Source of the DNA: Candidatus Uhrbacteria bacterium
GTDB taxonomy: Bacteria; Patescibacteriota; Patescibacteriia; 2-12-FULL-60-25
NCBI GenBank assembly: GCA_020854265.1
Contig: JADZFU010000001.1
Span: 30,938-94,937 of the forward strand
Reading direction: 5' to 3'
DNA length: 64,000 nt
Below, one piece after another: positions 8,290 through 57,799 of the stretch (position 1 is the first letter of the stretch; the number at the start of each line of letters is the position of its first letter). The notes under the pieces were generated by a model. The model was not told where the DNA came from. It saw only the letters and a program-made list of their open reading frames with translations, and did not search any database. The position numbers and the translations under genes are program-made.

Positions 8290-8613
8290 TTAGGCGATAT
8301 ACGGTTTGAATTTTTCGAGGAAGGCCTCCTTTGGCATTGCTCCGACAAATCGGTCTACTTCTTTGCCGTCTTTGAAGACGATGACGGTCGGGATGGAGAG
8401 AACGCGGTACTCCGTTGAGAGATGCTGGTTATCGTCAACGTTAACCTTTCCGATTTTGAGTTTGGACTCGTCGATTTCGCTCGCTAGCTCATCGATAATC
8501 GGGCCGGTAATACGGCATGGTGGACACCAGACCGCCCAAAAGTCGACCGCAACCGGTGTTGAGGATGAAAGGACTTCGGCTTGAAAATTGGATTCGGAAA
8601 AGACATGTGCCAT
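8290..8613 (-). CDS. trxA: Thioredoxin (WCPPC active site)
   Basis: VAVDFWAVWCPPCRITGPIIDELA...KVNVDDNQHLSTEYRVLSIPTVIVFKDG. Confidence 0.92.
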   Translation of the reverse strand: MAHVFSESNFQAEVLSSSTPVAVDFWAVWCPPCRITGPIIDELASEIDESKLKIGKVNVDDNQHLSTEYRVLSIPTVIVFKDGKEVDRFVGAMPKEAFLEKFKPYIA

Positions 8614-8621
8614 AGGTCCCG

Positions 8622-8650
8622 ATCATAATTCCAAAACACTTGACCTGCAA
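8622..8650 (-). promoter_or_regulatory. trxA promoter: TTGCAG-17-TATGAT, 8 nt before ATG
   Basis: Reverse-strand reading of 8614-8650. Confidence 0.55.
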
Positions 8651-8682
8651 GCGGGCTTGGGAGCATGCTATTGGCCTTTCCT

Positions 8683-10302
8683 ATGAACACTCTCCTCACC
8701 CGTTTGAAGCAGAACTGGCGCTCTGGCGTTACGGTAGGCCTTGTTTCTATCCCGCTTTCGGTTTCGCTGGCAGTCGCCTCGCAGGCTACGCCGACCATGG
8801 GCATCATTACTGCCATTTGGGCCGGACTTTTTGCCGCGCTATTCGGAGGGAGCGCATTCAATATTGTCGGACCGACTGGCGCTTTATCCGGACTGTTGGC
8901 CGCGTACGCCTTTACGCATGGCGCCGGATCTTTGCCCATGCTTGCGGTTGTCACCGGAGTCTTGGTATTGCTTGCTTGGGCGTTTAAATTGGAGCGTTGG
9001 CTTATTTTTGTTCCGGGTGCCGCCATTCATGGCTTTACCTTGGGCGTCGCCTTCATCATCAGTTTGAACCAGCTCGATTTTGCTCTTGGACTTACCGGAA
9101 TCGAAAAACATGAACGCTTCATTTCAAATGTCTTCACGTCCCTCCAGCATATCGGCCAAAGCCAACCGGCAGCCATCCTCCTCTTCCTCATTGTCCTGGC
9201 CGTGCTTTTCCTTTTTTTGAAGTTCATCCCGAAAATCCCGGGTGTTATCGTGCTCACGCCGATTGGCGTGCTGATTGGAAAACTCTCGACCGATGGGGTG
9301 CTTCCGTTTCGCTTACAAACCCTGAATGACAAGTTTAGCGATATCAGCGGCCAGCTGTTTTTGAACCATACATGGATGATAGATAAGCAGATGATCGTAA
9401 CTGCCTTGGCTGTTGCGTTGATCGCGATCATCGAGACCATGGTCTCGGCAAAAATGGCCGATGCCATGACGAATACCAAGCACGATCGCCGAAAAGAAAT
9501 GTTCGGACTTGGTTTGGCAAATCTCGCTTCGGGAATTATGGGCGGTATTCCGGCCACAGCCGCCTTGGCCCGCACATCATTGAATGCAAAGAGCGGAGCA
9601 ACGCACTCGACATCGGCCGCAGTCAGCTCAATCACCATAGTCGTTGTCTCACTTCTCCTGCTCCCTTGGTTCAAATTTGTACCGATGGCGATGATTGCCG
9701 CGATTTTGACCTTCGTGGCCGTTCGCATGGTGGAGCTGCAGCATTTAAAACGGTACTGGGAACAAGACAAGCGCGGTTTTATCATCGCGATGATTACGGC
9801 TTTTATCTGCGTCTTTGAAGATCCGATTGCCGGCGTAATGTTTGGAACGGCCGCCGCGCTCCTGATTTTTAGCGAACGGATTTCGCATGGACAATTCGAG
9901 CTCGTCATCCATCATGCCGATGGACAGGCGGATAAAATCGTCCACGAAAACGAGTCTGTTACCTGCGACGCGACTGACTTGCTCATTTACTCATTTACCG
10001 GACAGCTCGCCTACTTGAATGCTGAATCACATGCTGAGCATTTCCGAACAAAAGTAAATGGAGCAACGACGGTGATCTTGCGCATGCGCCACCTATACAT
10101 GATCGACGTCGACGGCCTCGATGTACTCGAAGAGATTGTCCGCGATCTCGAGCATGCCGGCAAAACCGTGGTCTTGTCCGGCGTGAATCCTCTTATCAAA
10201 ACGACGCTGGAACGCAGCGCCGTTTATGCCTCTTTGGTGGAACGCGGACGGGTTTACGACCGCACGTCTCACGCCATCCGCGCCTTGGGTTGCAAGGTTT
10301 AA
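8683..10302 (+). CDS. SulP family anion transporter with STAS domain
   Basis: SGVTVGLVSIPLSVSLAVASQATPTMGIITAIWAGLFAALFGGSAFNIVGPTGALSGLL; C-terminal STAS. Start taken as the second ATG (8683); an upstream ATG lies at 8665. Confidence 0.92.
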   Translation: MNTLLTRLKQNWRSGVTVGLVSIPLSVSLAVASQATPTMGIITAIWAGLFAALFGGSAFNIVGPTGALSGLLAAYAFTHGAGSLPMLAVVTGVLVLLAWAFKLERWLIFVPGAAIHGFTLGVAFIISLNQLDFALGLTGIEKHERFISNVFTSLQHIGQSQPAAILLFLIVLAVLFLFLKFIPKIPGVIVLTPIGVLIGKLSTDGVLPFRLQTLNDKFSDISGQLFLNHTWMIDKQMIVTALAVALIAIIETMVSAKMADAMTNTKHDRRKEMFGLGLANLASGIMGGIPATAALARTSLNAKSGATHSTSAAVSSITIVVVSLLLLPWFKFVPMAMIAAILTFVAVRMVELQHLKRYWEQDKRGFIIAMITAFICVFEDPIAGVMFGTAAALLIFSERISHGQFELVIHHADGQADKIVHENESVTCDATDLLIYSFTGQLAYLNAESHAEHFRTKVNGATTVILRMRHLYMIDVDGLDVLEEIVRDLEHAGKTVVLSGVNPLIKTTLERSAVYASLVERGRVYDRTSHAIRALGCKV

Positions 10303-12314
10303 CGGAATGCTTCGAGCTTGCGGGCTTTGAGCTCTTCGGTGAACGCTTCGAGTCTGTCGCCGGGCATAAGCTTGACCTTGCCTGCGTACGACATACCGCA
10401 CTCCATGCCGGCGCCGATCTCTTTGACGGCGGATTTGCCTGATTGGAGCGACTCGATAATACCATCGCCCTCAAGTTCGCCGCCGCGGAATACGCGGACC
10501 TTGGCACCGGTGACGAGTTTGCCTTCTTTTGTGCGGAGTCCGACTACCATGCGGTTGTTTTCGGTGCGGAAGACGGCTGCAACCTCGGCTACGCCGAGCT
10601 CGTTCACGATTTTTTCCTGCGGAAGCAAGGTATTCAGACGTGCAATGACGTCATCATACAAGTCGTAAATGACTTTATACATTTTGACTTCCGTGCCTTT
10701 TTCACGGGCTGCGATTTCGATTGCGGTCGGTAACATGACATTGAAACCGTAGACAACCGATGGCTTGGAATTGGCGGCGCGCTCGATGTCGGACTCGGTG
10801 ACATTCCCGAGGCCTTTTTGGACAACGGTGACACCGACAAGATCGTGCTTGATCTTTTCAAGCATGCCGAGGATGGCCTCGAGCGATCCGAGCACGTCGG
10901 TTTTGATGACGAGATTGAGTTCGATTTTCTTTTGAGCTTCATCGCCCTCGGCAGGCTGGGCCTTGGTTGCGGTAAATGAATCCGCGGTTTGACGCGAAAC
11001 CGTTTTCATCTTTTTGGTTTCGAGGTCTTTGGGATTTTCCGGAACTTCCATGATATCTCCAACAGACGGAGCGACTTTAAAGCCCAGGATTTTTACCGGC
11101 ATACCCGGGGTCGCTTTTTCGAGTGCTTTACCGTTCCAGTCGCGCATCATGCGTACGCGTCCATACGCATTACCAGAAATACCAAGCCAGTCATTGCGAT
11201 TGAGCGTGCCGTTTTGGATGATGGCTGTCGCAACCGGACCTTCGCCTTTGTCCACATGGGATTCGATAATGGTCCCGGCTGCACGCGCGTCGGGATTGGA
11301 CATGATGCGGTCTTTCTCGACTTCGGCAACGAGCAATACAAGATCGAGCAATTCGTCGATTCCGGTTCCGATCTTTGCAGAAATGCGTGCCATCGGAATT
11401 TTTCCTCCCCACTCTTCGACCGTGATGCCGGCCTCGGCGAGCTGACCCATGACGCGGTTCGGGTCGGCGTCTGGTTTGTCGATTTTATTCATCGCCACGA
11501 TGAATGGAAGCTTGGCGGCTTGAATAATGTTGATCGCTTCCTTGGTTTGCGGTTGAACGCCGTCGTCTGCTGCAACGACCAGAATTGCAATATCGGCAAC
11601 CTTGGCGCCACGTGAGCGCATGACGGTAAAAGCCTCATGACCTGGCGTATCGATAAAGGTAAGCGGCTTGCCCTTTTTTTCAACCATGTACGCACCGATA
11701 TGCTGGGTGATTCCACCGGACTCCCCTTCCATGACATGCGTTTTGCGGATGGCATCGAGTGTGCGCGTTTTGCCGTGGTCGACGTGTCCCATCACAACAA
11801 CAACAGGCGGACGCTCTTTGAGATCGCCTTTTTCCTGCGATGATAAAATTTCTTTGAGACGGTCTTGTGATTCTTCGGATGCCTGAAGTTCGGCTTGGTC
11901 GGCGGACTCGGCCGTTGTTTTGAATCCGAGCTCTTCTGCGATAATGGAGGCCGTCATGAAATCGATGCGCTCGTTTTGAGAGGCGAGGATTCCGGCTTTC
12001 ATCAGCTGCTGGATGACGCGCGTCACCGGAAGGTTAAGCTTACCGGCAAAATCACGGACAGCGATAACCGAGGGCAATGCCACCTCTTTTACCGGTCCTT
12101 CAGTTCCTTCGGTTGCTCCGGAAGTCTGACGGACGATTTGATCGCGCAAACGCTCACGGCGAGAGTTCTCCAGCCACTTCTTGTAGATTTGGTCGGCGGT
12201 GCGGTCATCGACCTTGATAGCGCGGGCGCCAATATCAAAGCCAAGCTCCGGCAATTTTGCGAGGAGCTGCTGCGGGGTAACGCGCAAACGGCGGGCCAAT
12301 TCGGTAACGTTCAT
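10299..12314 (-). CDS. infB: Translation initiation factor IF-2
   Basis: VVVMGHVDHGKTRTLDAIRKT...DTPGHEAFTVMRSRGA...NKIDKPDAD; N-terminal IF2_N. Confidence 0.97.
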   Translation of the reverse strand: MNVTELARRLRVTPQQLLAKLPELGFDIGARAIKVDDRTADQIYKKWLENSRRERLRDQIVRQTSGATEGTEGPVKEVALPSVIAVRDFAGKLNLPVTRVIQQLMKAGILASQNERIDFMTASIIAEELGFKTTAESADQAELQASEESQDRLKEILSSQEKGDLKERPPVVVVMGHVDHGKTRTLDAIRKTHVMEGESGGITQHIGAYMVEKKGKPLTFIDTPGHEAFTVMRSRGAKVADIAILVVAADDGVQPQTKEAINIIQAAKLPFIVAMNKIDKPDADPNRVMGQLAEAGITVEEWGGKIPMARISAKIGTGIDELLDLVLLVAEVEKDRIMSNPDARAAGTIIESHVDKGEGPVATAIIQNGTLNRNDWLGISGNAYGRVRMMRDWNGKALEKATPGMPVKILGFKVAPSVGDIMEVPENPKDLETKKMKTVSRQTADSFTATKAQPAEGDEAQKKIELNLVIKTDVLGSLEAILGMLEKIKHDLVGVTVVQKGLGNVTESDIERAANSKPSVVYGFNVMLPTAIEIAAREKGTEVKMYKVIYDLYDDVIARLNTLLPQEKIVNELGVAEVAAVFRTENNRMVVGLRTKEGKLVTGAKVRVFRGGELEGDGIIESLQSGKSAVKEIGAGMECGMSYAGKVKLMPGDRLEAFTEELKARKLEAFR

Positions 12315-42899: not shown

Positions 42900-43297
42900 A
42901 GTTCCATCATGTCGTTCACGAGGCGCTCCTGCAAGGAGAACATTTCCGCCTCTTCTTTGTCCGTACAATGGTCGTATCCGGAGAGGTGCAGAACGCCGTG
43001 TATCGCAAGACGAATCAGCTCTTCGCGTGTAGATAACGCCCTCCGTTTAGCCTCGCGCTTGGCGTACGCTTCGCAAATAATGATGTCGGACGGCTCAAAG
43101 GATAGAACATCGGTGGGTTTATTGATTCCACGATAATCCTTGTTCAGCTTGGTGATGGCTTTCTCGGTGACAAATGCAATACAAATTTCGCGCTTTGATT
43201 TTTGACGAAGCGCCTTCCCTATCTTGCGCCCCAGCTGATCAAGATCACGTTTTGTGATCGATGCCGGAAGCTTGGTTGCGATATCGAACACGATCAT
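42896..43297 (-). CDS. ybeY: rRNA maturation RNase YbeY
   Basis: RGINKPTDVLSFEP; HGVLHLSGYDHCTDKEEAEMF (H-x3-H-x5-H). Confidence 0.95.
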   Translation of the reverse strand: MIVFDIATKLPASITKRDLDQLGRKIGKALRQKSKREICIAFVTEKAITKLNKDYRGINKPTDVLSFEPSDIIICEAYAKREAKRRALSTREELIRLAIHGVLHLSGYDHCTDKEEAEMFSLQERLVNDMMEL

Positions 43298-44625
43298 GGT
43301 TCAGTGCTGGTAACAGTGGAGCTCGCAGCCATCGTCTCCAAAAAATCTCCCGGGCCATTTAATGCTTCGCTTGCTTTGGTCTCGTCCAAGACCGGCGCTC
43401 CAGAAAGCCGGAGCGAATTGAGGATCATTTCATATGTCGTGCGGAAATTGATGAACGGCTTGGTTCCGATGTCATAGGACAGCGAGAAGATTTTTCCATC
43501 CCATGCAAAGTACGCGTCCAAACGCTCGGCACCGAGCAAGCCTTCGAGCCCGCCTCGTGTCGTGATCAGCCGGACTGCGGTAGACGGCGTATTGGCGTTT
43601 TTTGCGAGATACCATTCGGTGACAGATTGGCCCAATGGATTATCCTCGATCCTGATCTTGAATGATTCGCCTTGATTCGTGCGTACGGTTGCGATTGAAC
43701 CATCAGCCGTATCAAGCGAAGATGTCCACCCTTTGGGGATGAGAATCGACCAACCAGCAGGCGCGACAAATGGCGTTACCAGACCTGAATCAGCTAGCCG
43801 GACCGGTGCTATAGCCGAAGGATTATAGAGATGGAAGACCTCATTCCCGTCGAGGAATCCGTCTTTGTCGGAATCCTGAATACTGGCATCGGATCCATAA
43901 AGAGGCTCCTCGACATCGCTCAACCCATCAGAGTCTGAGTCGAGACCTCCAGGCGGCAAGGTTGGAGCAGACGGCACGACAGTAGAAGGCGCAACATCAA
44001 CCGTTGCGGTATTTGAAGGGCCGGATTCTGCGTTTTGACCGACGGCGATGACACGGTACGTATATGTACGTCCGTTTTGAACGCTGATATCAAGAAAGTT
44101 GGAGCTATTCGTAGGAAGGTTAGTGACCGGAATAAAGGTCGCACTCCCTTCACGGCGCTCGATACGGAATCCGGTCTCGTTGGCGGATGTATCTACCCAT
44201 GCCAAGGCTACGGCTTGAGTACCGCTGGCAACCGATGCTGTCAGATTGGCGGGAGCCGTAGGTGCTGGAATCTGGGTTACAGGAGGCTCGGGCACGACCG
44301 GCGCCGGCTTGGGGAATAGAATATCGCGATTAAACCAAATGAATCCTCCGGCCACCGCCAGCAGAAGAATGATAATAAGTATGACAAATGGCCAAATCGG
44401 ACGACGCTGAATCGGGGGCGGAACGAGCGGCTTGGGAGCAGCTGGTTTCGGCGGTGGCGGCAATGGAGCCTGCATCTCGGCGGCGGTTTTTCCATCCATT
44501 TTTAATGCCATGCCGAAATATTTTTCCGGCATTACGACAATCTCGGGTTCGCGACGACCGCCTGGTACCGCAGAACCGGCGCCGGTCGGGGCGCTTGGAG
44601 GTGGTGGTGGCGGCAGAGTTGGCAT
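43294..44625 (-). CDS. TM-anchored protein: Pro-rich N-tail, FN3, TSP3 repeats
   Basis: PPPPPPSAPTG...; WPFVILIIILLLAVAGGFIWF; FN3-like APANLTASVASGTQAVALAWVDTSANETGFRIERRE; DSDSDGLSDVEEPLYGSDASIQDSDKDGFLDGNEV. Confidence 0.85.
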   Translation of the reverse strand: MPTLPPPPPPSAPTGAGSAVPGGRREPEIVVMPEKYFGMALKMDGKTAAEMQAPLPPPPKPAAPKPLVPPPIQRRPIWPFVILIIILLLAVAGGFIWFNRDILFPKPAPVVPEPPVTQIPAPTAPANLTASVASGTQAVALAWVDTSANETGFRIERREGSATFIPVTNLPTNSSNFLDISVQNGRTYTYRVIAVGQNAESGPSNTATVDVAPSTVVPSAPTLPPGGLDSDSDGLSDVEEPLYGSDASIQDSDKDGFLDGNEVFHLYNPSAIAPVRLADSGLVTPFVAPAGWSILIPKGWTSSLDTADGSIATVRTNQGESFKIRIEDNPLGQSVTEWYLAKNANTPSTAVRLITTRGGLEGLLGAERLDAYFAWDGKIFSLSYDIGTKPFINFRTTYEMILNSLRLSGAPVLDETKASEALNGPGDFLETMAASSTVTSTEP

Positions 44626-44632
44626 AAAGATG

Positions 44633-45478
44633 TTAGGAGGCTACACAATCTGGCGTGGCACATTTACCGGCGCCTCGCGGGCTATATCCATTTCGGACTT
44701 CGCTACCGTCTTCGAATCCATCCTTATCTGTATCACGATTGAGCGGGTTGGTCCCGTATTTCACAACTTCATCGCCATCCGTAAGTGTATCACCGTCAGA
44801 ATCCGGATTTGCCGGATCGAGTCCAAGTTCGCTTTCCCTACGGTCGGAAAGACCGTCAGCATCCGAGTCGATTTCTGGTTCGGTGGTTGTTGCGGCCGGT
44901 GCTGCGGGAGGAGTAGGCGGCGGTTCATCCGTCACATTTGTAGGCGCCGGGATATTCACACCTGGCGGCGGCTGGGTAACAGGTACAGGAAGTACGGATT
45001 CGGACGGATCCGGTTCCGATGTATCCGTTGCAGAAACTGGCGGAGGAACCGTGACTCCTCCGTTTCCAGTAGATCCGTTTTGAGGCACGGGTTGGGACGA
45101 TGGGACCGAGGGAACCGAAGGGATCGGCGCTTGCGTAACAGGCGGCATCCGGATCACGAAATACCAGAAGGCAAATCCCCCGCCTCCAAGTACCAATAAA
45201 ACAACAAGTGCCACGACAGCAAACCCACCGACAGAAACTCCAGAGTGCGGCTCGGGCATAGGCGCCGACATACGCGGACGCATCGGAGTCGAAGGCTTTT
45301 CCGGCATATCGGAAAAAATATCCTCCGGTTCTTTTACCGAGTCTGGAGCTTTTGGTGCGCTGCTTTGAACAGGAGCCGGAGCCGGCGCTTGCGGCGGAAG
45401 CGGCCGCGGAGGCGGCTGATTGGCCGGAGGCGGAGGCGGCAACGGTTCAAATGGAAGGTTTGGTGGGGGTATCGCCAT
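44633..45478 (-). CDS. TM-anchored TSP3 protein with Pro-rich N-tail
   Basis: MAIPPPNLPFEPLPPPPP...; TM; DSDADGLSDRRESELGLDPANPDSDGDTLTDGDEVVKYGTNPLNRDTDKDGFEDGSEVRNGYSPRGAGKCATPDC. Confidence 0.85.
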   Translation of the reverse strand: MAIPPPNLPFEPLPPPPPANQPPPRPLPPQAPAPAPVQSSAPKAPDSVKEPEDIFSDMPEKPSTPMRPRMSAPMPEPHSGVSVGGFAVVALVVLLVLGGGGFAFWYFVIRMPPVTQAPIPSVPSVPSSQPVPQNGSTGNGGVTVPPPVSATDTSEPDPSESVLPVPVTQPPPGVNIPAPTNVTDEPPPTPPAAPAATTTEPEIDSDADGLSDRRESELGLDPANPDSDGDTLTDGDEVVKYGTNPLNRDTDKDGFEDGSEVRNGYSPRGAGKCATPDCVAS

Positions 45479-45480
45479 AT

Positions 45481-46038
45481 TTATGGAATGCACGTTTCAC
45501 GGACACAGGGACCGGGACCTAATGGATTATACTTTGCTTTTACTTCTTGACCATCATTGAATCCGTCATTATCCGTATCAGCTTTTAGAGGATCGCTGCG
45601 ATACGTGACGATTTCTTCAAGGTCGTTTAGTCCGTCGGCATCGGTATCGAATCGATCTGGATTGGTGCCGCGTGTCGCCTCCTGTTCGTCCGTGAGACCA
45701 TCGCGGTCGCGGTCGGAAGGCGTAGGGGCTGTCGGCGTTTCCGTTGATGACGAAGCTTCAGGTCCAGCTTCTGACTCAGCTTGTGAAGCCTTCATGCGTT
45801 CATCATAGATTTTTTCTTGATTAGTATTAGGAACATACTCCCTATCAGGACTGCTGCCATAGTTTTCAACATAATCTGATACTGGCGTTACTTCACTACC
45901 GTTTTTAGCATCTGCTGACACAGGCTCCCTTGCAATATCAATTGGTCTGCCGCGCAGCCAGAAAAATCCTCCGACAAAACTTCCAACAAGAAGAAGAGCG
46001 GATACACCTATTATTAGCAAACGAGCAGAGCTATTCAT
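45481..46038 (-). CDS. TM-anchored TSP3 protein
   Basis: N-terminal TM; DRDRDGLTDEQEATRGTNPDRFDTDADGLNDLEEIVTYRSDPLKADTDNDGFNDGQEVKAKYNPLGPGPCVRETC. Confidence 0.87.
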   Translation of the reverse strand: MNSSARLLIIGVSALLLVGSFVGGFFWLRGRPIDIAREPVSADAKNGSEVTPVSDYVENYGSSPDREYVPNTNQEKIYDERMKASQAESEAGPEASSSTETPTAPTPSDRDRDGLTDEQEATRGTNPDRFDTDADGLNDLEEIVTYRSDPLKADTDNDGFNDGQEVKAKYNPLGPGPCVRETCIP

Positions 46039-46040
46039 AA

Positions 46041-49000
46041 TTAGTTCGACGTGCCTTTGAGTGGCGTTGGGAGAATAGCTGGAGGAGATGTGCCTGAAAC
46101 ATCACCATTGCATTTTAACTGATTCAGAATCGTAATTCTCCCCGTAAGCGAGTCTTGATCGAAGACATGCCAATACTTACCTTGCCCACCTGAAGCCCCG
46201 CTGCGAGGAGTGCACGGAGCCGATGTATGCCGAGGAGCATCCAAATTGAATATACGATCGAATGTAATCACTCGAACTGAGCTTGAAGTGGTTAAGTCGA
46301 AGTACCTATATGACGGTCGAGAAGCTGACGGAGTATAGTCCACTAAGAAATACGAGTATTTACCCTCAGTAGACCATGGCCCTCTTTTGTATTTCATTGT
46401 TTGTGGAGCGGTACTGAATGAATTACAAGAAAGATTTAACTCTCCGTCTGGCAATAAAGTGAAACAATACAAGTTTGCGTGGGGAGATTCGTCCATATTG
46501 GGACGACCTTGGGGATCCCAGTAGATATCTCTTGTGCTCGTGTTGTACCACATACCATTTATAGGGCGTCCTGGTGGGTTCGGAAGGTAATTGTTGAAGA
46601 AATATGGGGGTGGGCTGAATGGACTTCCTGGCGGTCCATAATCTTCGCTCGGATTCAACATCTCAATACCAGTCGTGGATGCGGTTTGGGACTCTGGCAG
46701 GATTAAATGTGCATCTATATATCCTGAAAGCGCTCCGTTCCATGTATGAACAACCAGTGTTTCATCCTCACTCACACGAGGTGCCAAGAAGATTTTGCCA
46801 AGGCTGTTTTCGATTCCGACCGAGCGGAAATTCGTCTGCGAGAATGAATTTGATTCGTACGGCCAGTATCCGCCATTGATTGACTCGTTTGGATTATCCG
46901 GGAGATTCCAGCGTGTTCCACCGCAGAAAATCGGATCGGTCGTGCCCTCGGCACCGCTGCGGTTTCCTTCACCGGTACAGACGTTGTCCTGATAGTAGTC
47001 GACGATAATGCGGTATTGGCCGCAAACCGGATTACGGTTGAGGTTTGAGAAGCGGAAGTAACCGGTCAAACTCGTATACGTTTCAGAAACGCGGATACCA
47101 CGGCTGTAAAGGGTGACGCGCGCATTCGGAACCGGAAGGAATGAGTACACGGCGTCATATACCGTTGCTTCGATGACTCCATCGCCTGTTACCTCGGTAC
47201 AACGCAGACAGCCTGTGAATCCGCATGAAGAGTTACAAGATATCGCTTCTTGAGGAGTCGAACCTGGACGGCGTGCGGAAATATGACGCGTATCTATCGT
47301 GATTGGAGTAGTACTTCCTTCATAGTACGTTCCACCCGATGCTCCTAATTCGCAAAGAGTTCGGTTGCCCAGTGTACAGGTCGGAGGCAAACCGGTACAC
47401 ACAGAGTCGGCAGACCCGCTCGTATAATACGTTATCAACTCTCCCGTTGGACTGACACATCTTGGGTATGCCGCACAAGTGACATTGGCAGCGTAATCGT
47501 AACCAAGTGCACGACATGAGGGCACCGATGCTCCAAGATCAGATGCATCGCATTGTTCCGGTCCTTCTTTAACACCGTTTCCGCAGAATCCGCCTGAGGT
47601 TGAAACTTGGCGACATGTTGCGGAACATGCAAGACATGATGCGCCGTAATCTGCCGGACATGAGGCGGTGCCGTTCAATGCACCAAGATCGCATTCTTCC
47701 GGACCTGGATTCACGAAGCCGTCTCCACAAATGTTCGTACGACAAAGATTCGTACACGCATCGGTATTGTTGGAATTGCCGTCATCACACTCTTCTCCGG
47801 CATCGGTGCGTCCGTCTCCGCAAGAACCAACGGCCTCGCAAGCGGACCAAGTATTCCAGGTGCAGTACTGTGCGGGCGATGTGACATCGGCAGGCGCCAT
47901 ACGGCAGGCGCGCGTACGCTCGGCGGGATAGGCAATACAGCGGCCCGTTGCTCCGCAGGTCACGGCATCTGCCGGACCAGAGCAGGCGCGGGTGCGATCA
48001 TTTGAGCAGCGATTTACCGTTGCGGGACAGGCGTCGTAATTCACACCTGACAGGAGTCCTCCGCAAACACCTCCTGCGCCACAATCAGCGGCTGTTGCAC
48101 ATGGGATACCGACCGTACCTGCAGTACAAATCGCTTGAGCAGAGCGCTCGACATTGTTATCGCATTGTTCGCGCGGGGTATCCACGCGGTTGTCGCCGCA
48201 ATACGGCGCAACGCCGCGGCAATCCGTGGAACAGGTGAGCGAAGCATCGCACGATCCGCGCTCGCAGTACGTACCGTTGGAAGCGCCTTGATCGCAGCGT
48301 TCACCCGGAGACAAAAGGGCGTCTCCGCAATACGCGCCATATCCCTGACAGTTGCGCGCGCAGCGTCCATAGGATCCATTCTGTGCACCGTCATCACAGA
48401 CTTCCGGCGAGGCATAGGTTTGGCAGGTCATGACCGTGCCTGCAGCATCGCGAGAATCATTACACTCGCTGTCGACCGTACATGCTTGGCCATAACGGAC
48501 ACCGGCCCCAACACAGCGAGCGCGGTCGATGCGACCGTTTCCGCAGAGCAGGTCGGCAACACAAATTGTGGACGCCGTGTCGCGATATGCCGTACAAGCA
48601 TCACATGACTGGATTTTTGTTCCGGCCTCTCCGCCCGCTGTTGTACAGGAAGCGCCGCGCGTTTGGCCTATTTCACAAATTTCACCTGGGCCGATGACCC
48701 CGTTTCCACAGATATTATCCTCACCGAATACGGCCCCGCGGCAGATTCCGTTATAGATATACGAGCCTCCGACACGTTCACAGCGTCCGGTTGAAATTGG
48801 CGGCGCTCCCGGAGCAGCGGCCGGAACGGTACAATCGTCAGCCGTGACACACGCCGTGTCGATATTGGAGCAGCGGAATGACAACGTCGGGAGATTCGGG
48901 CGATAGCGCGTATACTCGGCAGCTTCAAGCTCGGTTCCAAGCTCATACGTTTCTCCGCTATTTACCGCACGATACTGATACACGCGCGAGACGCTTTCAT

Positions 49001-52000
49001 CGACAAGCGGATTCAATTGAGGGCAGATAAATTGGCGTGTCGAGGGCGTCCAACACGTAGACGGCTCGACTCCTGGGCGGTCGGCCACGGCCTGACAGGT
49101 CGCGCCAGCAGAACAGTCCGCGTCGGTCACACATGCAGACGCACTTGCATCGGAACATCGACCGCAAGACAAGAAGCGGTTTACCGGATCAACCGGGAGA
49201 CTGCCGGCATTGCTTGCCAATGCCCCGGTCCAGCTCGGCCAGCGTGAATTGGAAAGCGTTGCAAGGAAGGAGCCTGATGACAATGCCGGATAGCTGCCGG
49301 ATGTTTCTTTGGAGGCTTCGAGCGTATCGGAAATACGCTGGAAATCGGCGATACGTTTTACATCGCGCTGAAGCTTGGATTTGAAGGCTGCACAGCGGAG
49401 GTTGCGATTTTTCGCAAGACATTCCCAGTCAGCCGTACATTTTACGGTGCGGCCGCCCTCGAGATACGTTTCGCCAGGGACATGCGCTCCGTCTGTCGTG
49501 TCATACACGCACGAATTGGAGGATTCGGTTTGGATATTCACATTTAGCGCCATGTTTTGGACAAGCTGGTCAAAAATGGCGATTGTTTCGGGCTTGGCAT
49601 CCGGATTTCGCGAAAGAATGTAGATATTCGGATAGATGTCGGCGACGGTGAGATCGTCGGTATTGGGTGCGGCAATATACACGGTCGTGCCATCCTTCAC
49701 CGCTTCGTATCCATCAACCGTGGTGGATTGCGGGGTACCAGAGAATCCTTTGGAGACATACCACTCGGCCGGAGACAGGTGCAAAGGGTTCGTGACAACG
49801 CGAATACCTACGCCATCACCTGCCAGAGCCGGATAACGCGTATTGTCGTATGTGAAGAGGTATTGGCGGAGGATGCCGAGACCAGAGTCGAGCGGCGTGA
49901 GTGCCACCGGCGTGACATTCATATCAGGCAAATCGTCGCTGGCAAGGTCTGGATCTTCTTGATCGCGACAATACATGGTCGAGAAGTTGAAGTACGGACC
50001 CGAAGCGAATGTCGGCGCGTAGTGCTCAAAGGATAGTGCATTCCGCAAATCAGCAAACGGACCAAGAGTGCGGACCGGCCACGGATTTTCACATAACAAG
50101 ACCGTGGACGGGAGCGAGCCGGAAATAAAGCTATTTGTCGTGGACGGGACATTGACCTCGTCACGAACAATCTGGATTTTTCCGAAGACGAGAACGGTTC
50201 CGTTTTTTTCGCGGGCTGTCACGTTGGCTTGCGTGGCATCTGCCGGAGTTGCGGCCGCTTGGATAATGGTTTCGTCGGAAGAATCCCATGGAGCCCATGT
50301 CCATTGGTATTCGGCGATTGGCGAAAGCGGAACACTCGTCCCTGCCTGCACGGACACGACATCGGCGTTGTAGATATGCGATTCATTTGCCGTGGAGAAG
50401 TATCCTGGGCTTGAAGTATTGGTATCGCGGACACGAACCGAGCTCACCGTACAAACACCCGCACCTGTGGTGAATACCCATTCAGCATTTCCGTCGAGGA
50501 CGGTGCCGCGGCGGCTTTGTGCTCCGCGTTTGCCAGCGGGGTTATCCGCAAGATCAAGATCACCTGCTACTCGGACGCGGTATTCCGTATTTGGTTGAAG
50601 TGCATTCTGGATATTGAGAATGGCACGCGTAGACGTGGTGCCGCTTGTTACTACCGGAGCAAAGGTTACCGAACCACGGACCGTACCGGCACAGTAAAGC
50701 TGGGCACCGACTGGCTGGGCTCCGAAGAATGCAAGGATATTGTTCCAGACTCCGATAAACCAACCGCGAATACCGCCGATCGGAGCTGCGTCAATGGTGA
50801 GCGGCGTGCTGCCGCCCGGACATGTGGCACCGCTGGCGCGCTCGGCAAGAATAAAGTTGGTTTGGACGGAACCGGGTTCCATTTCTACGTTAAATGTCGC
50901 GCTGATTTGGACATTTCGGCAGACCCCCGAGGACCCGCCTACCGGATAGGAAGTGACAACGCGCGGACGAGGAGCGCAGCAACCAAAATTATCGAGACCT
51001 GTACCTGCCGGACAGGACGATTCCTGTGTGAATCCGCACTGCAACCCATAATCAGCCTGTCCTGTGCGGCTATCGTATGTTGCACGGACGAGCGACATCA
51101 TACGGCCGTCCGAATCGGGTGTTGCATCACCAACGATTCTGGCGATCTGCACAGCCTCGAGTCGGCCATCGCCCGTAACCGAAGCCTCACACATCGGGAT
51201 CTCGCCAAGACCAGCTGTTCCATCGGCACAGAATGAAGGAAGCGCGTATGCCGAAGATGAACCTTCAAAGAGACAGCGGTTGGAACAGCCGTCGCCGTTG
51301 GAGATATTGCCGTCATCACAATCTTCGCCAGGATTCACTGCGGCGTTTCCACACGTTGGCGCGTCCGTACCGAGATTGAGACACGTAAGCGGATCGCATG
51401 TTGCCGCCGAACCAGGACCAACTTCACACGATTCCCCCGCTTCAATGAGTCCATTTCCACACAGAGCGCGCACAATACGCGAGCCTTCATTCAGACAATT
51501 CGAAGAACATCCGTCTCCATTGCGCGTATTGCCGTCATCGCAGGCTTCTCCGGCGGCAATATCGTTATTTCCACACGTCGATCCGCCGCTACGCGAACCT
51601 AGCAATTGGCAGTCATTGGTACAGCCAGGGTTGGTTGTGGACGCAGAACCCGGATCACATTGCTCGCCGCGATCGAGAACGTCATTTCCACACAATGCGC
51701 TACCAACTCTCGGTTTGAACAAGCACGAGGCAGAACAGGTGCTCGTTTCACTCCCCTCATCGCACTCTTCCCCGCCGGTCGAGTTTGGCGGAAGCAGTCG
51801 GCATGAATCGCCAAAAATAGTGACACAGCCTGATGCACCGACCGTACATGGTCCTGTACGTGCCGCATTGCGGCAGAAGTTTGCATTAGATGTTTCTACC
51901 GTGCGGTTTCCGCAAGCAGCCGTGCGTCCATCGACGCCATCTGCACCGCGCAAAAGACAGTTATTGGTGCAGCCCGGAGCCGGAGATGCTGCAGTGTCCA

Positions 52001-55000
52001 CCAAACCAGTACCTGCAGCATTTACGAAGTCGGCGACATTGCCAGTTTCTTGGATATCCCATGCATACGTGCGGTCCGAGATCAGCGGCTGACCTAGCTC
52101 GTTACAGGTATCAGGTGCAGCCATCGGATTGGCCGCGAATGATTGGCGGGAATCTACAAGAGTTTCGATTTTTCGTGCCGGAGCAACAACAACACGCTCG
52201 ACGGTACAACGCGCATTTTCATCGTCTTTCACGCGGAAGGTCCAAGTAAATCCTCCATCGGTGTTCAGTCCGGAAAGAGGGAGACCCGAGATGGAAACCG
52301 GACCGGTCAAATCCCCACCGCGGATGGTCACACGGTAGAATCGGCCGCGCTCAAGCAGAGTCTCAACCATTCCGCCGACCGTTCGGGTCGGATCAAGGCG
52401 CAGATAACGCAAACCGGTTTCAGTCGTACCAGGAACGGCAGACAGTACCGGCGACGTGTCAAAGGCAAGTGTCAAATCGTACGAAACACAATTTTCATTG
52501 GTACAGCGACGAATCTCTATATCATCCGAACCGATGCTCGCCGCCTCCATCGGAACATTGAAACGAGCCCAGATTGCAGCGTTAACACATGCTTCGTCGC
52601 AGCCCGGACCATATGCCTCTATGCGCGGCGGAATCAAGCGGATAAAGAGGTCGCCTGTTCCGGTAATGGTGCGGCCTCCATCAGTTATTTCTGCATTTAC
52701 ACGAACAGGTGCAATTGCAGCCTCGCCGAGCGCAGTAACGGTTTGATTATCAAGTCCAAGACCGCCGGAACGATTGGTTGTTACGGACGCACGGCCATCC
52801 GATGTCGACCAGTTCCAATCGTATGAATCTCCTCGAAGCACCAAACATGCGTCCCCTGCGGCGCGCGGAACCGCGCGGTACAGCTCGGTTTCGCCGACAT
52901 TTTCCATTTCGTGAGGCGATGGAACGACATTGATAGAGCCGACGGTACATAACTCGGTTGTTGGACGTGTCGTAAAGGTGAAGCAGTATGCGTTTCCGTC
53001 GCCACACTCGGCACGTGGAAGCATCGGGACATCGGTGGTCGAGCGGATAGCCGTCGTCAAAATAACTTGGTAGGTCGTTCCTGGTTCAAGGTTGCTGGTG
53101 GTGCGGTATTGAATATAGCCTTCGCCGGCATTCTCACCGATTGCCGGGAATCCGCCTGCTGGCGATACAGGAACAGCAGACGCACAAGGGTCTTCGGCCG
53201 GCCCCGTACAGCGGCGTACAAGCAAGGAGCTTGCATTTACCGTAGCCGGATCGATTGGCGTATTAAAACGCAGATAGATATCGGCATTTACACATACTGC
53301 ATTTCCACCGCTTCTTGTTCCCCATGGAGATGGCGAAGGCGGTTTTGACGATGCGGCCGTGGAGCACTCTTCGATAACGCGCGGATTAACCGGAATAACA
53401 CCCGTGGAGATATTCCACGCAAACATGGCTTCTGGCGAAGCAGCTTCACATGTGCCGCCAACCGAACATGCACCGGATCGGCAGCAGACCTCACCGGCAG
53501 CAGAACAGATTGATGCGTCCTCATTACAGTTTCGAACGGCAAAATTTACGCCGTTGGAATCGAGCGTACCAACGGTTGCTTGAACGCTGCCGGTTATCGC
53601 ACCAGTCGGGACGGATGACATGATCCGCGAAGCCGTCCAATCGCCTGCACGAACAAGGGAAGAGACGCGTCCGGAAGGACCCGTGAATGAAAGCGTTCCG
53701 TCGGTACCAAGACGTTCGCCAATTACTTCTACTTCGGTTCCGATCGGACCTGCTACCGGACGAATGGCACACAAGCCTGGTCGTGCAGGATTTGTATTTA
53801 CGGAAAAATTGACACGGTTGCTGACCACGGTGTCTTGCCGTTCAACTTCAATTTGATAGGAGCCGGGAGTAAGCGCTTCATCGCCAAGACCGGCGCGAAT
53901 CACGCGAGGAACTTTGACTGTGATAGAAGTATCCGTCCAAAACGCCGCCGAGCATCCTTCCGGGAAGCTGGTGTCAGCCAGCGCAACTCCATCCGTACGG
54001 CGGAAATTGACCCTGCCGATACGAGAACCGAAATTGCGTCCTTGTACCGTGATATATTCACCTATTGGTCCATTGTCTGGCGATACGGAGTCGATAATTG
54101 GGCCAGCCGTGGCCGTGCGCTCATTGATACGGTAACTCACGCTATTCGACTCGACGCCGCCTGAACGCGCACGAACCGCGTATGTTGCCGGCGAGATTAC
54201 CGGCGCATTCATGGCGATCATGCTATCGCTCCATGAGAGGAAGGCGCTTTGCTCGCGATCATTAAAGAATACACGGTCCGATGTACCGCCAAGTCCTGCG
54301 CCAAGGAGCTCAATTCTCTCGCCAGGCAGCCCGCTGTTTGGCTGGGCTGCACAAAGTCCGGGACGCGCAATGTCGTTTACATCAAAATTGTCGATTGCGG
54401 GACCGCGAGTGTCATTTGAAGCATCTGACAAACCCGTGGATGCATTCGTCAAAGAGACCGGGCCATCAACTGAACCATCTGGGAGCGAGACTATGACTTG
54501 ACCGGGTGCCCATGTACCGATTCCGGCGGAAACACAAGCAGCTGGAGGATTCGCAATGCGCCCATCGGCAAACACAACTTGTCCCGTGGATGTGCCAAAA
54601 TTTGCACCGGAAATGGTGACCATGGTCCCTGGACGACCATCGCGCGGGGAAATATTTGTGATGATTGGCTGATCCACGCAGACTCCGGCAGAACAAACAC
54701 CGGACGAGCAATCTGCACCAGTGGTGCATGACCCGCCCGAGCAGGCTCCGCAGTCCGCTCCTCCGCAATCAAGACCGGTTTCATCAGAATCTTGCGATCC
54801 GTTAAAACAATGCTGCGGGCGGACCGTAACCGAGATAGTTGCGCTATCGGCCGTATTTGAGTCGAGATCGTTGGCACTTGATTGGATGGAATGACGACCG
54901 AGCGGAATACCGGTTGTGTCCCATGGAACTTCGAATGTCTGATCGCCGCCGGATCCTGCAACCGAGGTACCGATGCCGACGGATGATCCGTCGACAAATG

Positions 55001-55931
55001 ATTCGGCAAAAGAAACACCGGCATCATCCGTCACATGGGTTCGGATGTTAACTAGATCGTCTACGGGAACGCTCTGCCCATCAAATGGAGACTCGATAGT
55101 CACTACCGGCTCGGCCGTATCAACAAGATCGCCGGATGTGAATCGACCTTCGCAAACAGGCGCAAACCCTCCGCAGACAATGGACTGACCGCCCGTGGAG
55201 CGGAGACCGGAGGCAACGCGGACGATGTATTCCGTGTTGGAATCAAAACATCGGCGTGACTCGTTTGGTGCGGGACATGGCGTCTCTGGGGTAAAGGTTG
55301 CGAGCGAACCGGAGATCTCCAAGCCTCCGGCAACAGGAGAGCTGTCGCTGGCACGCAGAACCTGAAGATTTGCTGCCGTGGTGGCAGGATCTATTGAGCG
55401 CGAGAAAATGAAACGGACCTGAATATTGCGGATGGATACGGTTCCGGAAGGCGTGAGAGAACGGACTTGGAAAGCCGAGGTGCCGCCGGACGGACCGACT
55501 CCTCCCCCGCCGGGACCGCCTCCGCCAGGACCTCCAGCTCCGCCTCCTCCGCCGGTTGCATTAATAAGCGCATTAATGACAAAGGTTGTAATTCCCCACG
55601 CAGAAAGAATGATAACCAAACCGATTATGGAATTTTGCAGGATCTTTTTTGCCTGACCGACTTTTTCTGCGTCACCGCCGGATGTCATCCACAAAAAACC
55701 GGCGTATATAATAAGACAAAGGACAACGATGCCAAGAAGCCCGAGCGTTACATTGATAATACGAGCTGCAATGGTGCGCGGATCCTCCGAGCCGAGTTTT
55801 ATGGTGCTGCCTACCTCGTTCAAGCCGGTTTCGACTTGGGCGTACGCTGGTGCGGCCTGAAAAGCCCAAAGCCCGGTCGTGAGAGACAGGGCGGAGAGCG
55901 CAATGAGCGCGGACAATCTAAGGAGCTTCAT
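46041..55931 (-). CDS. Giant (3296 aa) surface protein: T4SS-pilin-like TM module, Gly-rich linker, Ig/IPT-TIG/Big_5-like domains, Cys-rich DUF4215-like repeats
   Basis: Signal peptide; LGIVVLCLIIYAGFLWMTSGGDAEKVGQAKKILQNSIIGLVIILSAWGITTFVINAL; GGGGPGGGG linker; four IPT/TIG-like segments (ISPRDGRPGTMVTISGANFG...); repeats such as CGNNDIAAGEACDDGNTRNGDGCSSNC. Confidence 0.93.
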   Translation of the reverse strand: MKLLRLSALIALSALSLTTGLWAFQAAPAYAQVETGLNEVGSTIKLGSEDPRTIAARIINVTLGLLGIVVLCLIIYAGFLWMTSGGDAEKVGQAKKILQNSIIGLVIILSAWGITTFVINALINATGGGGGAGGPGGGGPGGGGVGPSGGTSAFQVRSLTPSGTVSIRNIQVRFIFSRSIDPATTAANLQVLRASDSSPVAGGLEISGSLATFTPETPCPAPNESRRCFDSNTEYIVRVASGLRSTGGQSIVCGGFAPVCEGRFTSGDLVDTAEPVVTIESPFDGQSVPVDDLVNIRTHVTDDAGVSFAESFVDGSSVGIGTSVAGSGGDQTFEVPWDTTGIPLGRHSIQSSANDLDSNTADSATISVTVRPQHCFNGSQDSDETGLDCGGADCGACSGGSCTTGADCSSGVCSAGVCVDQPIITNISPRDGRPGTMVTISGANFGTSTGQVVFADGRIANPPAACVSAGIGTWAPGQVIVSLPDGSVDGPVSLTNASTGLSDASNDTRGPAIDNFDVNDIARPGLCAAQPNSGLPGERIELLGAGLGGTSDRVFFNDREQSAFLSWSDSMIAMNAPVISPATYAVRARSGGVESNSVSYRINERTATAGPIIDSVSPDNGPIGEYITVQGRNFGSRIGRVNFRRTDGVALADTSFPEGCSAAFWTDTSITVKVPRVIRAGLGDEALTPGSYQIEVERQDTVVSNRVNFSVNTNPARPGLCAIRPVAGPIGTEVEVIGERLGTDGTLSFTGPSGRVSSLVRAGDWTASRIMSSVPTGAITGSVQATVGTLDSNGVNFAVRNCNEDASICSAAGEVCCRSGACSVGGTCEAASPEAMFAWNISTGVIPVNPRVIEECSTAASSKPPSPSPWGTRSGGNAVCVNADIYLRFNTPIDPATVNASSLLVRRCTGPAEDPCASAVPVSPAGGFPAIGENAGEGYIQYRTTSNLEPGTTYQVILTTAIRSTTDVPMLPRAECGDGNAYCFTFTTRPTTELCTVGSINVVPSPHEMENVGETELYRAVPRAAGDACLVLRGDSYDWNWSTSDGRASVTTNRSGGLGLDNQTVTALGEAAIAPVRVNAEITDGGRTITGTGDLFIRLIPPRIEAYGPGCDEACVNAAIWARFNVPMEAASIGSDDIEIRRCTNENCVSYDLTLAFDTSPVLSAVPGTTETGLRYLRLDPTRTVGGMVETLLERGRFYRVTIRGGDLTGPVSISGLPLSGLNTDGGFTWTFRVKDDENARCTVERVVVAPARKIETLVDSRQSFAANPMAAPDTCNELGQPLISDRTYAWDIQETGNVADFVNAAGTGLVDTAASPAPGCTNNCLLRGADGVDGRTAACGNRTVETSNANFCRNAARTGPCTVGASGCVTIFGDSCRLLPPNSTGGEECDEGSETSTCSASCLFKPRVGSALCGNDVLDRGEQCDPGSASTTNPGCTNDCQLLGSRSGGSTCGNNDIAAGEACDDGNTRNGDGCSSNCLNEGSRIVRALCGNGLIEAGESCEVGPGSAATCDPLTCLNLGTDAPTCGNAAVNPGEDCDDGNISNGDGCSNRCLFEGSSSAYALPSFCADGTAGLGEIPMCEASVTGDGRLEAVQIARIVGDATPDSDGRMMSLVRATYDSRTGQADYGLQCGFTQESSCPAGTGLDNFGCCAPRPRVVTSYPVGGSSGVCRNVQISATFNVEMEPGSVQTNFILAERASGATCPGGSTPLTIDAAPIGGIRGWFIGVWNNILAFFGAQPVGAQLYCAGTVRGSVTFAPVVTSGTTSTRAILNIQNALQPNTEYRVRVAGDLDLADNPAGKRGAQSRRGTVLDGNAEWVFTTGAGVCTVSSVRVRDTNTSSPGYFSTANESHIYNADVVSVQAGTSVPLSPIAEYQWTWAPWDSSDETIIQAAATPADATQANVTAREKNGTVLVFGKIQIVRDEVNVPSTTNSFISGSLPSTVLLCENPWPVRTLGPFADLRNALSFEHYAPTFASGPYFNFSTMYCRDQEDPDLASDDLPDMNVTPVALTPLDSGLGILRQYLFTYDNTRYPALAGDGVGIRVVTNPLHLSPAEWYVSKGFSGTPQSTTVDGYEAVKDGTTVYIAAPNTDDLTVADIYPNIYILSRNPDAKPETIAIFDQLVQNMALNVNIQTESSNSCVYDTTDGAHVPGETYLEGGRTVKCTADWECLAKNRNLRCAAFKSKLQRDVKRIADFQRISDTLEASKETSGSYPALSSGSFLATLSNSRWPSWTGALASNAGSLPVDPVNRFLSCGRCSDASASACVTDADCSAGATCQAVADRPGVEPSTCWTPSTRQFICPQLNPLVDESVSRVYQYRAVNSGETYELGTELEAAEYTRYRPNLPTLSFRCSNIDTACVTADDCTVPAAAPGAPPISTGRCERVGGSYIYNGICRGAVFGEDNICGNGVIGPGEICEIGQTRGASCTTAGGEAGTKIQSCDACTAYRDTASTICVADLLCGNGRIDRARCVGAGVRYGQACTVDSECNDSRDAAGTVMTCQTYASPEVCDDGAQNGSYGRCARNCQGYGAYCGDALLSPGERCDQGASNGTYCERGSCDASLTCSTDCRGVAPYCGDNRVDTPREQCDNNVERSAQAICTAGTVGIPCATAADCGAGGVCGGLLSGVNYDACPATVNRCSNDRTRACSGPADAVTCGATGRCIAYPAERTRACRMAPADVTSPAQYCTWNTWSACEAVGSCGDGRTDAGEECDDGNSNNTDACTNLCRTNICGDGFVNPGPEECDLGALNGTASCPADYGASCLACSATCRQVSTSGGFCGNGVKEGPEQCDASDLGASVPSCRALGYDYAANVTCAAYPRCVSPTGELITYYTSGSADSVCTGLPPTCTLGNRTLCELGASGGTYYEGSTTPITIDTRHISARRPGSTPQEAISCNSSCGFTGCLRCTEVTGDGVIEATVYDAVYSFLPVPNARVTLYSRGIRVSETYTSLTGYFRFSNLNRNPVCGQYRIIVDYYQDNVCTGEGNRSGAEGTTDPIFCGGTRWNLPDNPNESINGGYWPYESNSFSQTNFRSVGIENSLGKIFLAPRVSEDETLVVHTWNGALSGYIDAHLILPESQTASTTGIEMLNPSEDYGPPGSPFSPPPYFFNNYLPNPPGRPINGMWYNTSTRDIYWDPQGRPNMDESPHANLYCFTLLPDGELNLSCNSFSTAPQTMKYKRGPWSTEGKYSYFLVDYTPSASRPSYRYFDLTTSSSVRVITFDRIFNLDAPRHTSAPCTPRSGASGGQGKYWHVFDQDSLTGRITILNQLKCNGDVSGTSPPAILPTPLKGTSN

Positions 55932-57799
55932 GGTGAGGCGGGTGTGGGAGCGGTGCAGGCGGCGGATCTTGGATCGCCGTCACAGCAATTTGGATTGGTG
56001 CTATTCGCGTCACAAATGTCGGATCCGGAAGGATTGAAACAGTTCTGCAATACATTTTGGACACCGGACAGGAATACCGGCTGGTAAATAGGGGCGATCG
56101 CCGTCGGATCGGTAGAAGTCGCAGCCGAGAAAATACGGTGATCGATTGTAACGCGTGCTTGGCTTGCGATATCGCCAGATCCGGCTGGCGTACCGGCGGC
56201 GGTGAGATTCTCCTGCGAAAGAGTCCACCAGAAAGTATCGGCCATCGCGACAGGTTCATTGGTACGGATGCCGATTGTTTCCGAGTTCACCGTGGACGAC
56301 TGAAGTACCGAGTCGAATACCGCTTCGGGATTGAGATCGAGCGCGATATTGCTGCGGGATGCAATGTCTCTCTCGTTGGGCGTGGTGCTCAAAATACTTG
56401 GAGCCGTGAGCACCGGAGGGCCATTGGTGCCAAATGCCCATACGTAGTTATCATTCCCATCGACTCCATCGTCTGGCGAGCCTTGTGTTATGCCGTCGCC
56501 ATTTCCGTCCAATGCATTTCCGACCATATCGACTATGCCGTTGTAGCCAAAGCCGGAGAGGAAGGCCAATGGTGGCGTATCGGACATTGTCGGCGCCTGA
56601 ACCGTGACTTCGATGGATGTGTCGGTTGGGAGACAGTACACCGTGCGTCCGCATGAATTTGTCCCGCAGGCCAAATCCGTGGTGAACTCAACCGTCCTAT
56701 ATTGGTTGCTGATTCGGAATTCGCCGTTGGGGAAAGTTGTTGCACCCCCAGCCGGAGTGGAAGCGACCCGGATATTGGTAAAACCTGAACCCGCCGTCAC
56801 CATGCCAGCGGCCGAGGTAGGATCGACGGCTTCGTTAAAGTTTACTTGCACGACAATATTTGGCGCATAGGAGCCGCCAGCGGACGGAATCACCGAGCGA
56901 ACCTGGGGCGGCGTCGTGTCTACAACGGTTGAAACTTGGAAGTTCCAAATATATCCAGAAGAGAAGGCGCCGGAGAATGCGGGCGAACCATCCTCGCGAC
57001 GGATCCCTGATCCGCCAGACAAAAGCTCGGCCGTGTAATCGGTATCCGTCGTTGGGCTGCCAAGATATGCGACCGGCATAATGACAAAGGTTTGACGGTC
57101 GGGTGTGAAGCGGACTCTCGCCTCGGCTGATGTAAGTGCTCGGTCGCGCTGACCATTCACATAAATTTTTACAGCATCGCTATTTAATCCAACCGTTGTA
57201 CTGGTCGCGATATCGTCAGAAAGATCGGCAGGCGTGCCATTGTCGTTATATCCGGCAATGAATGAGCTGATACGGATCGGTTCTTTGAATGTGATGACGA
57301 TACGCGTATTGCGCGGTACGCCGGTAGCGTCGCGGGACGGTAGATGGGTCTCGATAATGCCGCCGCCGAGCGAACCGGACGAGCTCGGGAAACCGGAGCT
57401 TCCGCCAAACCGTCCGCCGCCTATCCCTCCCCCGCCGCTTGTCGCGCCAGCGAGCGCATCCATGACAAAGCGGGTAATCGCAAAAGCGGAAAGGATGATG
57501 ACAAGACCGATAACACCATTACGGATCCATGTTTTTGCCTCGTCGACTTGCTTTGCATCGCCTTTGGCCGTCATCCAGCGCCATCCTGCATACAAAAGTA
57601 TCCCCAGCAAAACGATGCCGAGGAGACTCAAGAAGACATAAATGATGTTTCCGACAATAACCGGAAGGTCAGCGCTCCCCAAACCTGCCTGCGTTCCGAC
57701 CGCTTCAAGACCCTCCCCAACCGGACCTGCGGTTTGGGCTGATACGGCTAACGGTGCCGCGAGAAGAAAAAAGAGGGATAAAGAACCTTTCTTGAGCAT
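55928..57799 (-). CDS. T4SS-pilin-like TM module with Big_5/Ig-like ectodomain (about 623 aa)
   Basis: Signal peptide MLKKGSLSLFFLLAAPLAVSAQ; LLGIVLLGILLYAGWRWMTAKGDAKQVDEAKTWIRNGVIGLVIILSAFAITRFVMDAL; IIETHLPSRDATGVPRNTRIVITFKEPI. Confidence 0.9.
   Translation of the reverse strand: MLKKGSLSLFFLLAAPLAVSAQTAGPVGEGLEAVGTQAGLGSADLPVIVGNIIYVFLSLLGIVLLGILLYAGWRWMTAKGDAKQVDEAKTWIRNGVIGLVIILSAFAITRFVMDALAGATSGGGGIGGGRFGGSSGFPSSSGSLGGGIIETHLPSRDATGVPRNTRIVITFKEPIRISSFIAGYNDNGTPADLSDDIATSTTVGLNSDAVKIYVNGQRDRALTSAEARVRFTPDRQTFVIMPVAYLGSPTTDTDYTAELLSGGSGIRREDGSPAFSGAFSSGYIWNFQVSTVVDTTPPQVRSVIPSAGGSYAPNIVVQVNFNEAVDPTSAAGMVTAGSGFTNIRVASTPAGGATTFPNGEFRISNQYRTVEFTTDLACGTNSCGRTVYCLPTDTSIEVTVQAPTMSDTPPLAFLSGFGYNGIVDMVGNALDGNGDGITQGSPDDGVDGNDNYVWAFGTNGPPVLTAPSILSTTPNERDIASRSNIALDLNPEAVFDSVLQSSTVNSETIGIRTNEPVAMADTFWWTLSQENLTAAGTPAGSGDIASQARVTIDHRIFSAATSTDPTAIAPIYQPVFLSGVQNVLQNCFNPSGSDICDANSTNPNCCDGDPRSAACTAPTPASP

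Follow-up and report, generated by a model that had tools for sequence, protein, structure and literature searches.

What would a protein of 3296 residues that begins like a secretion pilin do on the surface of a bacterium that is tiny and probably host-dependent? The question is raised by one open reading frame in the window, i.e., the whole 64,000-nucleotide stretch of Candidatus Uhrbacteria DNA analysed here. In published studies, VirB2-like pilins of Patescibacteria (PF18895) form arrays of 2-11 genes (PMC12102498, PMC10633639), pilins of the type IV secretion system (T4SS) are essential in Southlakia epibionticum (Wang 2023, PMC10633639), and a PrgB-type adhesin was searched for in Patescibacteria and not found (Quinonero-Coronel 2025, PMC12102498). 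Pilin-domain proteins as well as Ig-like ones are among the highly expressed secreted genes of Paceibacteria on methanogens.

A sequence-only reading had proposed that the frame encodes one surface protein with a cleavable signal, two hydrophobic helices of the T4SS_pilin/VirB2-like layout, a hinge and about 3100 residues of Ig-like, TIG, Big_5 and Cys-rich domains. The frame is real and encodes a single protein from an ATG start on the minus strand, organized as follows:

46041..55931, minus strand: putative giant modular T4SS pilin, 3296 aa, hereafter the giant (ORF with ATG start; Pfam domains; end-to-end orthologues)
55839..55931, minus strand: signal peptide, residues 1-31 (sequence)
55566..55787, minus strand: T4SS_pilin hairpin, residues 49-122 (PF18895; conservation; hairpin model)
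55485..55547, minus strand: disordered Gly-rich hinge, residues 129-149 (pLDDT < 50)
54885..55109, minus strand: Big_7 Ig-like domain, residues 275-349 (Pfam)
53802..54101, minus strand: the better of two TIG domains, residues 611-710 (Pfam)
52968..53309, minus strand: the best of four Big_5 domains, residues 875-988 (Pfam)
51273..51692, minus strand: first cluster of Cys-rich DUF4215/TIGR02232 repeats, residues ~1414-1553 (Pfam, NCBIfam, motif scan)
48672..50009, minus strand: conserved region, residues 1975-2420 (26-43 orthologues aligned; model)
47544..48329, minus strand: second cluster of Cys-rich repeats, residues ~2535-2796 (motif scan)
46044..47294, minus strand: variable distal end, residues 2880-3296 (window identity; orthologue presence)

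The signal and the two helices were found as described: the predicted cleavage site lies between AYA and Q at residue 31, and hydrophobic helices at residues 52-86 and 97-125 flank the short charged loop SGGDAEKVGQAKKIL (sequence, hydrophobicity and model). The family assignment was confirmed by the profile search, in which residues 52-118 matched PF18895 (T4SS_pilin) with 40.9 bits against a cut-off of 26.6; the Mbov_0395 family of pilin-like conjugal transfer proteins in NCBIfam also matched (E 6e-8), under its equivalog cut-off. Sequence similarity to canonical VirB2 or to a solved pilin was not detected: VirB2/TrbC (PF04956) was not among the Pfam matches up to E 0.1 and a PDB profile search of the module against solved pilins (TraA, VirB2, CedA1) gave chance matches only. 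An AlphaFold model of the N-terminus, built with 58 aligned sequences, agreed with the proposed layout: after a short helix come a helical hairpin (32 and 39 residues), a linker with pLDDT below 50, and Ig-like strands, the last of which swamped the Foldseek matches of this model.

The ectodomain behind the hairpin and the disordered Gly linker, about 3100 aa long, likewise had the predicted composition. Over the Pfam cut-offs it contained four stretches of Big_5, two of TIG, one of Big_7 and three of DUF4215, and NCBIfam added a cysteine-rich repeat (TIGR02232). With its 154 cysteines and many small domains, the giant has the look of a stalk stabilised by disulphides, with an end that can be exchanged. 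Such a layout is a usual one for adhesins. A PrgB-type polymer adhesin domain was not among the Pfam matches of the giant, no VirB5 similarity was reported by Pfam, and the C-terminus (...PTPLKGTSN) lacks an LPxTG-TM-charged tail. Residues 1975-2420 gave a confident model (pLDDT 89.7) with no PDB fold match in Foldseek at E <= 0.001. Within this region, residues ~2175-2360 resemble the head of a type II/type IV pseudopilin in motifs (helix, G-YP, P-DPVN, Y-YR, Y-L-E). We do not claim such a head, because Pfam scans of 43 orthologues gave a lone GspH match (E 0.0065), the PDB profile search was empty, and so was Foldseek at E <= 0.001.

The giant is not the only pilin fusion at this locus. Directly upstream, and absent from the sequence-only reading, lies P654, a gene with the same pilin module, and three small membrane proteins follow downstream:

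55928..57799, minus strand: P654, putative second modular T4SS pilin (T4SS_pilin and Big_5), ~623 aa if translation starts at the ATG that is codon 32 of the ORF as listed (PF18895, 33.0 bits)
57464..57664, minus strand: T4SS_pilin module of P654 (Pfam)
45481..46038, minus strand: single-pass membrane protein with TSP3 (DxDxDG) repeats (PF18884; operon conservation)
44633..45493, minus strand: single-pass Pro-rich TSP3-repeat protein (PF18884; operon conservation)
43294..44625, minus strand: single-pass protein weakly similar to fn3 and TSP3, both under the Pfam cut-off (operon conservation)

P654 also exceeds the PF18895 cut-off of 26.6 bits, carries about 500 aa of surface domains behind its module, and is joined to the giant by an ATGA overlap. 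The first TSP3 protein begins 2 bases past the stop of the giant, and the three single-pass proteins, with TSP3-type calcium-binding repeats, are packed nearly without gaps; they are possible partners or tethers of the giant. Two of this trio (43294-46038) end in a Cys pair (CATPDC, CVRETC). Downstream of them are ybeY, dgkA, ftsA and ftsZ, names that were read from the translations.

Orthologues of the giant were examined in 28 related genomes and 80 named loci. Most of the order lepB-hisS-(yqeY)-P654-giant-TSP3-TSP3-fn3-ybeY-dgkA-ftsA-ftsZ was preserved, local insertions and losses aside, in Candidatus Uhrbacteria, Magasanikbacteria, Falkowbacteria, Komeilibacteria and Buchananbacteria, together called ABY1 or class Patescibacteriia. 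End to end the orthologues measured ~1900-4000 aa, in many independent assemblies and in the same neighbourhood. That the giant frame is an assembly chimera, one of the refutations foreseen by the sequence-only reading, or an annotation artefact is thus practically dismissed: length, order and neighbours are alike across dozens of independent assemblies, and evidence in favour was not found. At least 63 of 100 class genomes (>= 95% complete; matches at E <= 1e-40, counted by hand, a lower bound for presence) had the pilin module in an open frame at least 1500 aa long. Frame lengths in the genome searches are affected by open frames running through N, which are over-long; one such 14,252-aa "orthologue" in genome G004 (L053-L055) was a run of N read as an open frame and was dropped.

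The pilin module itself is more widespread, being present in 150 of 158 phylum genomes. Outside the class, only short pilins and unrelated fusions were found among these genomes: matches to the giant spanned only about the pilin length, and the few long frames (1097-1673 aa) had a different genomic context and similarity restricted to the module. Four outside-class loci (L157, L158, L159 and L160) presented runs of T4SS_pilin fusions, of ~300-360 aa and then 1097-1673 aa; three of them adjoin a NusG-like gene, and their ectodomains are unrelated to that of the giant. The long fusions of these other Patescibacteria (G100, G115, G128 and G201) resemble the giant in carrying a T4SS_pilin module in a large ORF and sit behind one or two further pilin fusions, but ectodomain similarity to the giant was not detected and the genomic context is another. 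Fusions of T4SS pilins to large ectodomains may have originated repeatedly.

Within the class, the giant was conserved nearly end to end except for residues ~2880-3296. Identity in this distal end was 6-38% in 50-aa windows, and it was detected in 31 of 103 orthologue sequences as compared with 77-100 for the stalk regions; some genomes are counted twice among the 103 and contig ends truncate some orthologues, a loss for which the figure of 77 (residues 2700-2800) allows. Conservation of the stalk and variability of the distal end lend some help to the proposal that the giant would be a mega-adhesin for host attachment. The same pattern bears on a different explanation, namely that the giant, rather than being an adhesin, would serve as a structural scaffold of the envelope or one resembling an S-layer, and may have a link to division. 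A scaffold would fit the conserved block shared with ftsA-ftsZ and the three small TSP3-repeat membrane proteins, the near end-to-end conservation and wide occurrence in the class, and the 154 cysteines, which suggest a rigid disulphide-stabilised rod. We nevertheless hold it to be unlikely, since the distal 400 residues vary, often from one lineage to another, as a ligand-binding end would, and an SLH (S-layer) domain was absent from the Pfam matches of the giant.

If the N-terminal module were only a membrane anchor, how well should it be conserved? Across orthologues, residues 49-122 were 60% identical to the window protein, the top 74-residue window in the giant, whereas the signal peptide was poorly conserved (23%) and the membrane segments of the three downstream single-pass proteins had 23-32% identity. 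In a tree of modules, those of the giants did not group together. Therefore, a test of concerted evolution was run, in which giant and P654 modules were compared in 72 genomes. Identity between the two modules averaged 0.596 within the own genome and 0.488 across genomes, and the own-genome value was the higher in 96% of 2549 genome pairs; between orthologues, identity was 0.520 for giant modules and 0.494 for P654 modules. The adjacent ectodomains, used as control, gave 0.194 own and 0.189 cross, with 0.285 and 0.385 between orthologues. By sliding window, the block of giant-P654 similarity (residues ~25-124) ran from the start of the mature protein through helix two, and left out the signal peptide, the Gly linker and the ectodomain.

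The fusion modules also resembled the short pilins that the same genome encodes away from the fusion locus. In 18 genomes, identity to short pilins was 0.595 (own) and 0.540 (other genomes) for giant modules, and 0.591 and 0.516 for P654 modules. The own-genome excess was reached in 0 of 5000 shuffles, which correct only partly for relatedness; the ectodomain is the better control for it. In the genome of the window, one array pilin shares 53% identity with the giant module and another 65% with that of P654. These patterns speak for a module that functions as a pilin rather than as a plain anchor. The suggestion of the sequence-only reading that arm-bearing subunits build a pilus-like assembly gains indirect support from the concerted evolution of the module.

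Gene conversion is the main alternative for the likeness of the two modules. In this account, pilin paralogues would repeatedly undergo conversion or re-fusion and so keep their modules similar within each genome, with no physical co-assembly. Adjacent paralogues are prone to conversion, and concerted evolution could be obtained in this way too; codons at identical residues were identical slightly above expectation (0.42 against 0.36 expected from usage). In one genome (L126), codon sharing reached 79%, a possible recent conversion. Recent conversion is therefore rare, whereas older events may have taken place. Synonymous sites in nearly all genomes lie close to background, the similarity block stops at the end of the mature pilin, and conversion alone would leave co-assembly possible; we regard this account as quite improbable.

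The search for VirB4 and VirB6 that had been proposed as a check was positive: VirB4, a PrgI (PrgI/VirB3-like) protein and a polytopic VirB6-like protein, the last recognised by eye, are grouped on contig C4, and 39 of the 41 class genomes searched for VirB4 had it. A search for TrbL_3 (PF19590) gave no match, and neither did its control. VirB4 of this genome is apparently split into adjacent ORFs (L013:7832-8521, 229 aa, and 8528-10426, 632 aa). Of the 11 T4SS_pilin modules in the genome, two belong to the giant locus, six form a tandem array on contig C5, and the other three lie on C4 (two) and C3 (one). Those on C4 and C3 (L014:5186-6505, minus strand; L014:6532-8151, minus strand; L016:5794-7689, plus strand) are joined to enzyme domains, namely lytic transglycosylase (SLT), M15-like peptidase and SGNH hydrolase; in the protein scan, the M15 hit and two of the pilin-module hits scored under the cut-off. 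The first two loci adjoin a DsbA-like thioredoxin. The three modules look like a second, separate pilin set because they are 68-74% identical to one another and 8-15% identical to those of the giant and P654.

Such fusions, together with the lack of linkage between the giant locus and virB4, favour an account in which the pilin hairpin was reused as a plain double-pass anchor for mega-adhesins that are never in a pilus and never touch the T4SS. Against it, the hairpin is strongly conserved in sequence while anchors of the same operon drift, and the module co-varies with that of the adjacent fusion and with short pilins encoded elsewhere; we doubt that it is correct. Still, the locus is far from virB4 and the pilin array and next to division genes, which counts against the pilin reading, as does the absence of a sequence match to canonical VirB2 or a solved pilin.

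On balance, we consider it somewhat probable that the giant and P654 are modular T4SS pilins, likely minor or tip subunits, with a conserved stalk and a variable end that probably serves attachment. We infer the topology, co-assembly, minor or tip position, adhesion and host choice as follows. From sequence and model, Sec export and signal-peptide cleavage would leave the mature N-terminus outside; the hairpin would span the membrane, its GGDAEK loop facing inwards, and the bulky C-terminal part would again lie outside. The hairpin would pack through the same contacts as the short VirB2-like T4SS pilins of the cell, and for this reason both fusions probably either enter the T4SS assembly, in a minor or tip position, or attach to the base of it in the membrane. 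A rare subunit would be likelier because a 3000-residue arm on each subunit would be too crowded. The Ig/TIG/disulphide-rich stalk would hold the lineage-variable end off the cell, where it may bind a host or neighbour cell, and the arm would take the role of VirB5 or PrgB in other T4SSs. To our knowledge, there is no report of such a pilus in class Patescibacteriia.

How does this arrangement compare with known systems? Short Patescibacteria pilins and the giant share the same profile and hairpin motif; in the available sections of the studies describing them (PMC12102498, PMC10633639), these pilins are treated as small subunits and no large fusion is described, whereas the giant and P654, at a conserved locus of their own, add ~3100 and ~500 aa of surface domains. 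PilB of Streptococcus sanguinis (PMC8179133) resembles the giant in bearing a bulky adhesive module on a small pilin and is thought to be at the pilus tip, but its family is that of N-methyl type IV pilins, unrelated to T4SS_pilin, and the largest modular type IV pilin cited there has 860 residues as compared with 3296. The giant corresponds to the modular-pilin concept (pilin module, linker, and a module that is not pilus-specific) in a different pilin family. In the PrgB/LPxTG adhesins of Gram-positive T4SSs, a large surface protein is likewise proposed to hold the partner cell during T4SS activity, but these are anchored by sortase and have no pilin module (PMC12857230). With VirB5 pilus-tip proteins the giant would share the role of T4SS tip adhesin; adhesin and pilin are a single polypeptide in the giant.

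Grafting adhesive modules on pilins is already known in type IV pili (PMC8179133); a conserved pair of T4SS-pilin fusions across a class, one of them of this size, appears to be new among open-access papers, of which a single one in our search, the study that found no PrgB-type adhesin, names PF18895. The class-wide two-gene arrangement suggests an unrecognised way to build a long surface arm on a secretion machine. A further reading, that of a class-wide T4SS pilus with two giant VirB2-like built-in tip or shaft adhesins that replace VirB5/PrgB and choose the host by their variable end, is tentative and, in our judgement, rather doubtful. We know of no genetic system for class Patescibacteriia. 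In this class, the giant is a specific candidate for a T4SS-type host-binding adhesin, and it matters because the single species in which the T4SS has been tested cannot do without it and a PrgB-like adhesin was not found in the phylum (PMC10633639, PMC12102498). If the proposal is true, the modular-pilin principle, known in type IV pili, would hold for type IV secretion pili as well, and host choice would become testable through the distal ~400 residues.
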